Shown in pieces: positions 4,596 to 7,523 of a stretch of DNA of 64,000 nucleotides. The notes beneath the pieces are model-generated. The model worked only from the letters and a program-made list of their open reading frames with translations. It searched no databases and had not been told where the DNA came from. Position numbers and translations under genes: made by a program. The DNA is from Pseudomonadota bacterium (GTDB lineage Bacteria > Pseudomonadota > Gammaproteobacteria > Steroidobacterales > Steroidobacteraceae), in assembly GCA_026398735.1 (NCBI GenBank), contig JAPLSH010000004.1, positions 186,001 to 250,000 on the forward strand, read 5' to 3'. Numbering within the stretch: position 1 is the stretch's first letter; each line of letters opens with the position of its first letter.

Positions 4596-5966
4596 ATGGT
4601 GCGTTCAACACTCTCTGCCATCGTGCTGGCCGCGACTGCGGCCCTATGCACCGTGGCAGGTCCGGTTAACGCCCAACAGGTGGCCACTATCGGCTTCAAG
4701 AGCGTGGGTCGGGCCTGGCCGCTGGCCGCCGACTTGCGTCAATACGAGATCACGGGCGCCACAATCGTTGGCGCACGCAACACGCCGGGGACCTTTGTCG
4801 GGCTGGCTCGCGATGGCGCACCGCCGCCGGGCATCACGCCCCTGCCGATCGACCTGTTCACCTCCAAAGACTTTTACAAAGACAAGGCGCTGTGGACGGA
4901 CAAGCGCTACTTCCGCTGCAACAGCCCGGTCGCCATCGAAGAGCTGTGGGGCGCCGGCGGCCGCAGGCTGATTACCGATGCCGGTGCATCCAGCGCGCCC
5001 TGGGGTGATTGCAACCGCGATTACCCGCGTGAGGCCATCGTCAGCCCCTATCCGTTTAAAACTGCGCAAGCCCATTACGAGGCCTTGCTGGCAGAGACCA
5101 AAAAGCGTGGCGGCCCGACCAAACACACCTATGCCACCGTGCCCGGTGAATGGACCGGCCGCTACATGCATCCGGGGCGCACGCCGGGCAATGCTTACTG
5201 GTATCGCATGCGTCACAACCAGACGCCCACCATCCTGTCGCTGCTCACACCCGAGTATCAGCAGCGCATGGTGCAGCAGTCCTACCATGAGGGCACCACA
5301 GATCGGGCGCAGTGGCCCTCGCAGTACTGCCTGCCCGAAGGCTTCATGCGCCGTTGGCACGAGTTCGCCACCTGGGAGTGGCACGTCATGGTCACGCCAT
5401 CGATGGTGCAGATCCTCACCGGCGTGGCGCGCAACTTCATCACCAGCGTGCATATCGATCGCCAGTTCCGCATGGATGGCGCCGTGCCGCGATTGGGTGC
5501 TGACGTGCCGCGCTGGTATGGCGAGACCATCGGCTTCTGGGACAAGGACACACTCATCACCTGGACCTCCAACATTCAGGGCTGGGTGGTGCATGGCGCG
5601 TTTGAATATTCGAATAAGATGCAGACCCTAGAGATCTACACCGCCAACCGCGACGCCAAGGGCAAGTTTCTGGGCCTGAATCACGAAGCGATCTTTTATG
5701 ATCCTGAGTCGCTGGTGCAGCCTGTGCGTATCATCCGCAATCACATCAAGACCAGCGACTATGACCAAGGCGACCCCTACGTCTTCATCGACTGCGTACA
5801 GACTATCTTTCCAGTCAACGGCAAGGCCACGCCGGTGACGCCGGGCACACTCATAGAAATGCGAGTACCCGACATTTACGGTCGCCCCTGGGCTCAGACC
5901 TGGGAGCAGTATTTTGAGCAGGGCATGGAACGTCCGTCCAACGAAGACATCTTCAGCATCAAGTAG
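4596..5966 (+). CDS. Large exported protein of unknown function, first gene of the DUF6152/DUF6644 operon
   Basis: 456 residues. A signal peptide ends near AGPVNAQ (residue 27). No catalytic motif is recognisable. The mature protein is rich in Trp, Tyr and His, with blocks such as [40 protein letters not shown] and [10 protein letters not shown], and four mature cysteines (about 108, 139, 245, 400). Proteins with the [14 protein letters not shown] block occur with DUF6152 genes in steroid- and aromatic-degrading Proteobacteria, from memory and unchecked. GGGGGA at 4587-4592 precedes the ATG. The gene is 8 bp upstream of the DUF6152 gene and surely co-transcribed. It could be an extracytoplasmic oxidoreductase or binding protein. 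Confidence 0.7.
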
Positions 5967-5974
5967 GCAAACAC

Positions 5975-6466
5975 ATGAACACCACTTCACGCTTTCGTCG
6001 CATCTCCGTTGCAGCGCTGCTCATCGGCGCAGCAGCTGCCATGCCCGCACTGGCACACCATTCCTTTGCCATCTTCAACATGGAACAGACCCGTGTCTTT
6101 ACCGGCGTAGTCACGCGTATCAACCCCGATGCCAATCACCTGCAGATCTTCTTTGCACCCATGAATGAGGACCGCAAGGGCGTGATGCGCAGCGAAGATG
6201 GCAAGCCAGTGGTTTGGGCCGTCGAAATGGCTGGCTCTGCACAAGCCGCCACTCAGGGCGTTTCTGTCAGCAGCCTGCCGCCCGGCACCTATATCAGCGT
6301 TGCGCTGCATCCGCTGCGCACTGGTGAAGCTGCCGGCAGCCGCGCCGAAACCGGCGCCATCTTCCGCTGCCCCGACAAGAAGGCCCCGGCGGCAGGCAAG
6401 CATTGCGACAGCGTTGAAGGCCGTCTGGCCTTTGGCGAGGGCGCACTGGCACAGCCTAAGAACTGA
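5975..6466 (+). CDS. DUF6152 family periplasmic protein
   Basis: 163 residues. The signal peptide is RISVAALLIGAAAAMPALA, with predicted cleavage just before HHSFAIFNMEQ. The HHSF start and the TRVFTGVVTRINPDANHLQIFF strand pattern are hallmarks of DUF6152, a small beta-barrel family. If cleavage occurs after ALA, the mature protein begins His-His, a possible metal-binding N terminus. Two cysteines sit near the C terminus (FRCPDKK, KHCDS). It is the second gene of the operon and the next gene follows by 6 bp. The function is unknown. Confidence 0.82.
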   Translation: MNTTSRFRRISVAALLIGAAAAMPALAHHSFAIFNMEQTRVFTGVVTRINPDANHLQIFFAPMNEDRKGVMRSEDGKPVVWAVEMAGSAQAATQGVSVSSLPPGTYISVALHPLRTGEAAGSRAETGAIFRCPDKKAPAAGKHCDSVEGRLAFGEGALAQPKN

Positions 6467-6472
6467 TCACCC

Positions 6473-6958
6473 GTGGAGCAGTTCGCGCAGTGGCTGCAGG
6501 CCACGCAGCTGAGCGTCGCGATCCAGTCCACCACCTGGCTGATCCCGCTACTGCAATCGATCCACATCGTCATGATCGGTGTGGTGTTCGTGGCAGTGCT
6601 GCTGCTGGTGCTGCGCGTGCTGGGCGTGGCCCGCACTGATGAGCCCCCCTCTGTTGTGTGGGCTCACTTTGCACCGTGGATCAAGCGTGGCGTAACGGTA
6701 CTGGCACTGACAGGCTTAGTGCTCATCATCAGCGAGCCGGTGCGTGAGTTCACCGCCCTGAGCTTCTGGCTCAAGATGCTGCTGCTGGCGCTGGGCATCG
6801 CCTCCATTGCGGCGCTGGGTAGCGCGTTACGGCGCGACGGTGCAGCAAGCCGCCCTCTGGCAGTGTTCACCCTACTGCTGTGGTTGGCAGTCATCTTCCT
6901 TGGCCGCGCCATCGCCTACGACGTCGAAGTCTGGGGCGCACTCTCCTTCAAGGCCTGA
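6473..6958 (+). CDS. Integral membrane protein, DUF6644-like (first copy)
   Basis: 161 residues with about four hydrophobic segments: 21-45 (LIPLLQSIHIVMIGVVFVAV), 73-90, 98-116 and 128-146. It starts with GTG at 6473, 6 bp after the DUF6152 stop. The SIHIVMIGVVFVAVLLLVLRVLG segment corresponds to the TM1 His motif (HVIAAATVFGTVLVVDLRLLG) in the neighbour at 6981, so the two are probably divergent paralogues. Conserved His and Arg in membrane helices suggest haem or ion handling, but this is inference. Confidence 0.7.
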   Translation: MEQFAQWLQATQLSVAIQSTTWLIPLLQSIHIVMIGVVFVAVLLLVLRVLGVARTDEPPSVVWAHFAPWIKRGVTVLALTGLVLIISEPVREFTALSFWLKMLLLALGIASIAALGSALRRDGAASRPLAVFTLLLWLAVIFLGRAIAYDVEVWGALSFKA

Positions 6959-6980
6959 CCAGGCAGCACACGGAACCGAC

Positions 6981-7523
6981 ATGGATCTGCACGATATCGC
7001 CCTGGCCGTGGGCAACTCTGGACTCGGCGAATGGATGCGCACCAACGTGCGGGCCATGCCCATCGTCGAGGCACTGCATGTGATAGCCGCAGCCACGGTG
7101 TTTGGCACCGTGCTGGTGGTGGATCTGCGCTTGCTGGGTCTGCCCGACCTCAAGCGCGCAGTAACGCGCATCAGCGGCGAAATGCTGCACTTCACGTGGG
7201 CGGCTTTTGGTCTGGCCGTCATCACCGGCGTGATGATGTTTGCCGCCAATGCCAACACCTACTATGGCAACACCGAATTTCGCATCAAGCTGCTGGCGCT
7301 GGCTGCAGCCGGCGTGAATATGGCCCTCTTCCATTTCGGCGCATTTCGCAGCGTTGCGCAGTGGGACAGCAATCAGGTCTCGCCGCGTGCTGCGAAGGTG
7401 GCTGCTGCACTGTCGATCCTGCTGTGGGTGGGCGTTATTTTTGTGGCCCGCTGGATCGGCTTCACCAAGGGCTATGACTTTTCAGTGCCCGATAACATCG
7501 ATCTGGATCTGACTATCCCCTAG
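6981..7523 (+). CDS. Integral membrane protein, DUF6644 family (second copy)
   Basis: 180 residues. The family pattern is clear: EALHVIAAATVFGTVLVVDLRLLGL in TM1, a second helix around HFTWAAFGLAVITGVMMFA, then YGNTEFRIKLLALAAAGVNMALFHF and a last helix SILLWVGVIFVARWIGF. DUF6644 proteins are four-helix membrane proteins of unknown role. The frame extends upstream, but ATG 6981 fits the family start. Conserved His residues lie in the helices (LHVIAA, LHFTW, LFHFGAF). It is the last gene of the four-gene operon and ends 10 bp from convergent mscS. Confidence 0.8.
   Translation: MDLHDIALAVGNSGLGEWMRTNVRAMPIVEALHVIAAATVFGTVLVVDLRLLGLPDLKRAVTRISGEMLHFTWAAFGLAVITGVMMFAANANTYYGNTEFRIKLLALAAAGVNMALFHFGAFRSVAQWDSNQVSPRAAKVAAALSILLWVGVIFVARWIGFTKGYDFSVPDNIDLDLTIP

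Follow-up and report, generated by a model that had tools for sequence, protein, structure and literature searches.

Known bacterial copper systems offer the closest comparison for the locus described here. In reports on them (PMC8424229, PMC12362106, PMC13344008), DUF1775 and CopC proteins bind Cu(II) through an N-terminal His and are found beside a CopD membrane domain, Cu(II) passes between DUF1775 and CopC in vitro, and under copper starvation YcnJ needs His24 in its CopC domain as well as His295 in its CopD domain. Our subject is a set of four adjacent genes in a 64,000-nucleotide stretch (the window) of a Steroidobacteraceae genome (assembly GCA_026398735.1, contig JAPLSH010000004.1, positions 186,001 to 250,000). 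They encode, in this order, an exported protein (G1), an exported DUF6152 protein, and two copies of the membrane protein DUF6644. The set resembles CopC-CopD, and YcnI-YcnJ of B. subtilis ycnKJI (PMC12362106 and PMC13344008), in having a His at the predicted mature N-terminus of a periplasmic or extracellular protein, and in the pairing or fusion of that protein with a CopD-group membrane protein in which a conserved His is important. There are also differences: CopC and DUF1775 have a cupredoxin-like fold, whereas DUF6152 is predicted to be an oligonucleotide/oligosaccharide-binding (OB) fold; full-length CopD is longer than DUF6644, which consists of four helices, alone or as a diverged pair; and G1 is an additional, third partner, with the DUF6152-G1 combination strongly expanded in some genomes.

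Two other groups have to be considered. HemJ (UPF0093) is a protoporphyrinogen oxidase and a haem-b protein; the His of its first transmembrane segment (TM1) and the Lys of its third (TM3) align with those of DUF6644, which, however, is a different Pfam family and is linked to exported partners. Eight of the nine genomes of the genus carry their own HemJ besides DUF6644. Histidine-brace proteins (lytic polysaccharide monooxygenases or LPMOs, the CuB site of PmoB, CopC, and PCuAC of PmoF) likewise combine a mature N-terminal His with a further conserved His, but DUF6152 differs from them in its fold and in having His at both positions 1 and 2, and its metal site is putative.

Our analysis is computational and covers gene content and fusions, the co-occurrence of the families, their conserved residues and predicted folds, and the superfamily kinship of DUF6644. 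A sequence-only reading of this DNA had singled out the four genes as a candidate uncharacterised system, and this is strongly supported: the same system recurs elsewhere, and the window holds one copy of it. Apparently it is undescribed; in a literature search with most subscription-journal papers and preprints outside its coverage, no paper names DUF6152, DUF6644, PF19649 or PF20349, and none combines 'histidine brace', 'OB-fold' and 'copper'.

Fusions, co-occurrence and gene order

That the four genes form one system follows from fusions, co-occurrence and recurring order taken together. In genomes G442 (locus L155) and G409 (L153), one open reading frame (ORF), of 593 and 570 residues respectively, joins DUF6152, a G1-like domain and DUF6644, and is followed by a second DUF6644 gene, of 165 and 175 residues. 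In their congener G322, DUF6152 and G1 are fused (382 residues) and the two DUF6644 genes are separate. In a Pfam scan each triple fusion shows DUF6152, whereas DUF6644 gives a weak match (0.0016) in one and none in the other, and G1 lacks a Pfam model; the second triple fusion reaches 117 bits with a DUF6644 profile made from other loci. Further DUF6152-G1 fusions were found at L046:1828-2874 and L074:5854-6978, and 32 of the 43 DUF6152 ORFs examined in G041 are such fusions.

The gene order, which the sequence-only reading had proposed to search for across genomes, recurs in six of them (G001, G002, where gene 1 is cut by the contig end, G005, G006, G008 and G012) and at locus L055, and diverged copies carry the same set of genes in other arrangements. 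In a set of 60 genomes, made up of this one and 59 relatives, the 22 that have DUF6152 are also the 22 that have DUF6644 (Fisher p 7e-17). G1 occurs in 16 of the 60, with five matches in this genome, itself included, among which are solo paralogues. In a sample of 397 genomes of the phylum, which includes this one and for which presence lists were compared by eye, DUF6644 occurs in 31, all of them among the 45 with DUF6152 (Fisher p 1e-35; both p values are uncorrected for kinship).

The system is modular and exists in two forms, a compact one, with DUF6152, one DUF6644 and no G1, and a G1 form, usually with two DUF6644. The fetched loci hold 68 DUF6644 clusters, namely 21 singles, 46 pairs and one four-copy cluster; five loci (L054, L056, L060, L062 and L069) were excluded from the analysis as second copies of the same genomes. 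DUF6152 is present within 3 kb, and G1 is not, in 20 of the 21 singles, the exception (L097) lying at a stretch edge. Within the same distance, 25 pairs have both DUF6152 and G1, four have only DUF6152, three only G1, and 14 neither. G1 thus accompanies 28/46 pairs versus 1/21 singles (Fisher p 1e-5, four-copy cluster left out); eight pairs come from loci fetched for their G1 (L038-L057), which biases this count, and with these removed the figure for pairs is 20/38 (p 1.7e-4). In the compact form, seen in 15 loci from seven bacterial families, the gene immediately upstream of DUF6644 is DUF6152, in the same orientation and with gaps of -4 to 116; these loci come from 20 genomes fetched out of 30 others with DUF6644, and the other five of the 20 hold pairs. 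G1-DUF6152 without an adjoining DUF6644 occurs at L041, L052, L058, L063, L068, L070 and L073.

The sequence-only reading had taken the genes to form one unit, and had regarded their separate occurrence elsewhere as an argument against it. The unit stands as one system but not as a strict four-gene operon, which we reject because two forms and partial sets exist; separate occurrence is indeed seen in part, in the partnerless pairs and in loci with only G1 and DUF6152 or only DUF6152 and DUF6644. The partnerless pairs are at L075, L077, L080, L083, L086, L089, L095, L098, L099, L104, L106, L109, L111 and L112, and the few genes scanned around them include no common neighbour. Records with related loci are metagenome bins, mostly filed under Gammaproteobacteria or Proteobacteria, with one under Steroidobacteraceae. 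A bin labelled Klebsiella pneumoniae (L068, CAMDML010000024.1) has a close relative of the locus, otherwise found in uncultured gammaproteobacterial bins; this label is probably wrong.

Conserved residues and predicted folds

Gene 2 matches Pfam DUF6152 (PF19649) with E 1.8e-13 and 50.8 bits, above the gathering cut-off of 27. In all 91 distinct members examined His-His directly follows the predicted signal peptide, with the cleavage site placed from sequence only; the preceding residue is Ala in 87, Val in two and Ser in two, the following one Ser in 64, Gly in 24 and Ala in three, and a third His is present within the matching 18-residue stretch in 91/91. The His-His pair is also found in 43/43 DUF6152 ORFs of G041, one of which is among the 91. 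The invariant columns of alignment A1 (51 sequences) are H1, H2, G17 and H28. These sequences were gathered with a profile that had been started from the window protein, and the A1 search profile begins at His-His, which could slightly favour members with such a start. A profile built by iteration drifted into G1, because natural fusion proteins exist, and the DUF6152 counts given here rest on the A1 profile. As background, 688 signal-peptide-like proteins of the same loci include 24 with His directly after an AxA-like motif and 13 with His-His, DUF6152 proteins being part of these numbers. The His pair at the predicted mature start, together with the third His, fits the pattern of N-terminal-His copper sites, and the pair is a likely copper ligand.

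The AlphaFold2 model of mature DUF6152 (predicted local distance difference test, pLDDT, 94.0; predicted template modelling score, pTM, 0.88) points to an OB fold. Foldseek retrieves OB-fold proteins (best E 5.3e-3), and the best VIA-align neighbour is PriB (4apv; Z 8.1, root-mean-square deviation, rmsd, 2.6 A, 82 residues aligned). CopC is absent from the listed structural neighbours, which leaves room for a CopC-like fold as for other PDB folds outside the list, and a PDB profile search gave nothing significant (best E 0.6).

Genes 3 and 4 both match DUF6644 (PF20349, cut-off 27), with E 1.8e-6 and 28.6 bits, and E 6e-14 and 52.9 bits, respectively, and are 20% identical to each other. Their TM1 His is kept throughout: of 111 aligned sequences, one is a cut gene call that lacks this position, and the other 110 all have the His. 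The TM2 Gly and the TM3 Lys are each present in 111/111, the Trp and the Arg of TM4 each in 108/111, and the Arg after TM1 in 103/111; an earlier alignment of 90 sequences agrees on the conserved residues. In the tree, 31 of 42 first copies, gene 3 included, lie in one clade (97/92) and 31 of 42 second copies, gene 4 included, another (92/86). A third clade (98/93) holds 21 of 23 'single' copies; the other two, L057 (contig ending within or after the second DUF6644) and L086, are actually pairs. Six first and eight second copies form two groups beside the singles, and the order of the copies is swapped in some lineages. The tree and the invariant His bear out the description of these proteins as divergent paralogues with a conserved membrane His, and the tree indicates that the two copies mostly derive from an old duplication and have been inherited together, which suggests a heterodimer. 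Since DUF6644 follows exported domains in the triple fusions, it should begin on the periplasmic side of the membrane. In a four-helix protein this would probably place the His at the beginning of TM1, the Lys at the beginning of TM3 and the Arg at the end of TM4, all conserved, at the periplasmic face. Two unusual arrangements were noted: the DUF6644 copy at L235:5367-6314 has an extra N-terminal hydrophobic domain with His (HIHILLNHFP) and without a Pfam match, which might be a second redox or metal domain, and L093 has four tandem DUF6644 genes, arranged as two pairs, and lacks both DUF6152 and G1 within 3 kb of them.

By sequence similarity DUF6644 is related to the CopD/HemJ membrane families, which we take to share one Pfam clan or superfamily. 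Among the 111 members, 107 match DUF6644, 37 DUF2214, 12 CopD (at E 0.1 or better, the best 8.9e-9), nine SirB and six UPF0093/HemJ (best 6.7e-5), the other families listed (25 of 36 in all) having one or two matches each. Gene 4 scores below the CopD (PF05425) cut-off (E 0.53, 11.1 bits versus 32.1), no CopD match was reported for gene 3 in the Pfam scan, and UPF0093 was reported for neither gene at E 1; a DUF6644 of G003 reaches 22.9 bits against UPF0093, where the cut-off is 34.2. One DUF6644 place, G008:C226:8289-8567, passes the CopD gathering cut-off with 33.8 bits and possibly links the two families, so that the border between them is not sharp. In profile-profile comparison by hhalign, DUF6644 matches HemJ with probability 77 (E 2e-5; TM1 His and TM3 Lys align) and CopD with probability 10.7 (E 0.003), comparable to the 11.1 of HemJ versus CopD; the DoxX control gave 0.2. 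A PDB profile search with DUF6644 returned none at E 10.

G1 carries a signal peptide of about 26 residues (approximately 1-26). Neither Pfam nor NCBIfam gives a family match at E 1, a PDB sequence search gave no significant match, and the best E in the profile search is 0.047; no G1 match was found in a plasmid search. In 72 aligned members C245 is invariant and C400 nearly so, as are G188, G309, W315, L320, E346, D369 and P370; five of the 72 have a CarboxypepD_reg and two a DUF6152 domain by Pfam, and the G1-like L084:5535-6563 appears from its sequence to have an N-terminal carboxypeptidase-regulatory-like domain. The AlphaFold2 model (pLDDT 93.5, pTM 0.92) is predicted to have a fatty-acid-binding-protein-like beta barrel at its core, in the C-terminal part. 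Foldseek gave none below E 0.001 (best E 0.076). The 50 VIA-align rows, all with Z of 8.0-8.7 over mature residues of about 155-361, comprise fatty-acid- and retinol-binding proteins, including myelin P2, as well as UnaG and, twice, NanoLuc-type luciferase, which is a similar barrel; the best neighbour is 5h9a (Z 8.7, rmsd 2.6, 118 aligned). A Z near 8 is weak alone, so the weight lies on the uniformity of this list, beyond which other PDB folds may still match. G1 differs from these barrels by 150 extra N-terminal residues, by export, and by the lack of significant PDB sequence matches. As a known enzyme G1 was rejected on these same family, PDB sequence and Foldseek results.

Layout and surroundings

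The features of the locus are collected in the table.

Features of the four-gene locus (positions are those of the window)
Feature	Position	Strand	Basis
Gene 1 (G1), exported protein, 456 aa	4596-5966	+	ORF
Gene 2, DUF6152, 163 aa, exported, predicted OB fold	5975-6466	+	ORF, Pfam PF19649, AlphaFold2, PDB comparison
Predicted mature start of DUF6152, His-His-Ser following ...MPALA	6056-6064	+	HH conserved 91/91
Third conserved His of DUF6152, mature residue 28; 'ANH' here, 'NPH' in many members	6137-6139	+	invariant column
Gene 3, first DUF6644 copy, 161 aa, GTG start, four hydrophobic segments	6473-6958	+	ORF, Pfam PF20349
His31, conserved TM1 His of gene 3	6563-6565	+	alignment
Gene 4, second DUF6644 copy, 180 aa from ATG, four hydrophobic segments	6981-7523	+	ORF, Pfam PF20349
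His33, conserved TM1 His of gene 4	7077-7079	+	alignment

The tight spacing of four plus-strand genes holds as first read, with gaps of 8, 6 and 22 bp; in the mechanical ORF list gene 4 runs from an upstream TTG (6807-7523). Genes 1 and 2 each have one N-terminal, signal-peptide-like hydrophobic segment, and in genes 3 and 4 the His stands at the start of the first of four hydrophobic peaks. A scan of the locus for sigma-70-type promoters found none (shuffled sequence mean 1.1), and the two terminator-like sites are at background level (shuffled mean 2.1), so that co-transcription itself is not demonstrated. The flanking genes are all on the minus strand and suggest no link with the set; we take them to encode an exported and a CxxC-rich protein upstream, and MscS-like, NtrC-like and NtrB-like proteins downstream. 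Two overlapping small genes at 201-844 of the window presumably encode a RelE/HigB-type toxin and a helix-turn-helix antitoxin.

This genome has 22 DUF6152 and seven DUF6644. The excess of DUF6152 is extreme only in some genomes: G041, of 1.6 Mb, has 47 DUF6152 and one DUF6644, and G055 at least 68 and three, while the numbers are 36 and 18 in G025, nine and six in G029, and ten and six in G009. The notion that DUF6644 is always few was withdrawn on account of the 18 in G025. In a subset of eight further DUF6152 loci of this genome, a G1-like gene is beside or near DUF6152 in seven, L228 has three alternating DUF6152/G1-like pairs, and TonB-dependent receptors adjoin in L228, L229 and L231. 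We compared 110 of 135 directly adjacent genes with 110 of 235 genes at least four places away: TonB plug domains number eight versus four and pyrroloquinoline quinone (PQQ) propellers four versus two, and TetR (five), sorbosone dehydrogenase (four) and cbb3-type cytochrome c (four) occur among adjacent genes and not among the families listed for distant ones. This enrichment is suggestive. Other genes in the fetched G041 stretches (L233-L255) include sulfatases (4/99), TonB receptors (three), arylsulfotransferases (two), amidohydrolases and a TRAP transporter. Among the neighbours of the compact form (57 scanned), no theme is apparent in the 25 families listed.

Proposed copper handling and its rivals

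The sequence-only reading had suggested a membrane redox or transport module. Whichever of the two applies, what the sequences speak for is a metal, in all likelihood copper, and we tentatively favour, at somewhat less than an even chance, the view that the four genes make up one periplasm-facing, metal-dependent module, with copper as the most likely metal. The reason is that an exported protein with N-terminal His combined with a CopD-group membrane protein is the pattern of YcnI/YcnJ and CopC/CopD. DUF6152, once its signal peptide is removed, would expose the N-terminal His-His and bind metal through it, perhaps with the third conserved His. A DUF6644 heterodimer in the inner membrane would exchange the metal with DUF6152, as CopD is thought to do with CopC, in a direction that we can only infer. 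G1 would be the periplasmic partner of DUF6152, with which it shares a polypeptide in some genomes, and its putative ligand-binding barrel may set specificity.

Several observations weigh against this. Profile comparison puts DUF6644 closer to HemJ than to CopD; residues 1-10 of the DUF6152 model are its block of lowest pLDDT (77), and on our reading of the model the N-terminal His pair and His28 lie at opposite ends of strand 1; and in 14 of 46 cases a DUF6644 pair lacks both partners within 3 kb. No copper-handling family is found among the 25 commonest listed of 127 in the 110 adjacent genes scanned, nor among the 25 listed of 79 in the compact-form neighbours. Finally, DUF6152 has multiplied to tens of copies alongside one to three DUF6644 in G041 and G055, and this expansion, with the catabolic surroundings in G041, is more in keeping with a family of enzymes or ligand-binding proteins than with a simple importer.

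These copy numbers suggest that DUF6152-G1 does more than feed an importer, and make an enzyme family the main rival of the copper module. DUF6152-G1 proteins would be periplasmic copper-dependent oxidases or oxygenases, with the expanded copies differing in the compound attacked and the DUF6644 pair delivering electrons or metal. We consider this unlikely, though it accounts for the 47 DUF6152 of a 1.6-Mb genome with 32/43 ORFs fused to G1, for the merely one to three DUF6644 in G041 and G055, for the nearby TonB receptors, sulfatases, arylsulfotransferases, amidohydrolases, tannase, and PQQ and sorbosone dehydrogenases, and for the barrel predicted for G1. It has to contend with the lack of a known catalytic activity, with the few near-invariant polar residues of G1 beyond two Cys, one Glu and one Asp, with a compact form that dispenses with G1 (20/21 single-DUF6644 clusters), with the 18 DUF6644 against 36 DUF6152 in G025, and with the small differences between neighbours and distant genes of the same loci. 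In its boldest version, which seems to us quite unlikely, DUF6152-G1 would be a large undescribed family of copper oxygenases or oxidases, with an OB-fold head carrying an N-terminal His-His copper site and a substrate barrel, tens of copies attacking many compounds, and electrons or copper supplied by the DUF6644 heterodimer.

HemJ binds haem b through its TM1 His, and CcmE is an OB-fold haem carrier. By analogy, DUF6644 could bind haem b through its own TM1 His, DUF6152 could carry haem, and G1 could be a lipocalin-like binder of haem or porphyrin. The aligned His and Lys of HemJ, the closest family to DUF6644 by profile comparison, agree with such haem or tetrapyrrole handling, as do the predicted OB fold and beta-barrel core. 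We nevertheless hold it to be distinctly improbable: Cu(II) sites typically feature a free N-terminal His (PMC8424229), and the 25 families listed for each neighbour set include none for haem transport or cytochrome maturation. Homology alone does not separate haem from copper, because HemJ and CopD match each other. That the four genes are neighbours by chance in one lineage, with separate roles, is highly improbable and is rejected, for although every component also occurs apart (solo G1 paralogues, the partnerless pairs), three of the four domains are fused in two species, co-occurrence is 31/31, and diverged copies keep the same set rearranged.

Three families without assigned function, two with DUF numbers and one nameless in Pfam and NCBIfam, become parts of one system, which roughly one of every thirteen sampled genomes of the phylum carries (31/397), some of them with strong expansion. 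From the His-His start of processed DUF6152 follows a specific prediction that is cheap to check, namely that an OB-fold protein binds metal through its free N-terminus. If the copper module is real, DUF6152 would join CopC, DUF1775 and LPMOs as another kind of copper protein with an N-terminal His, one that has a membrane partner of its own, and dozens of hypothetical proteins would become interpretable in the genomes with the expansion.

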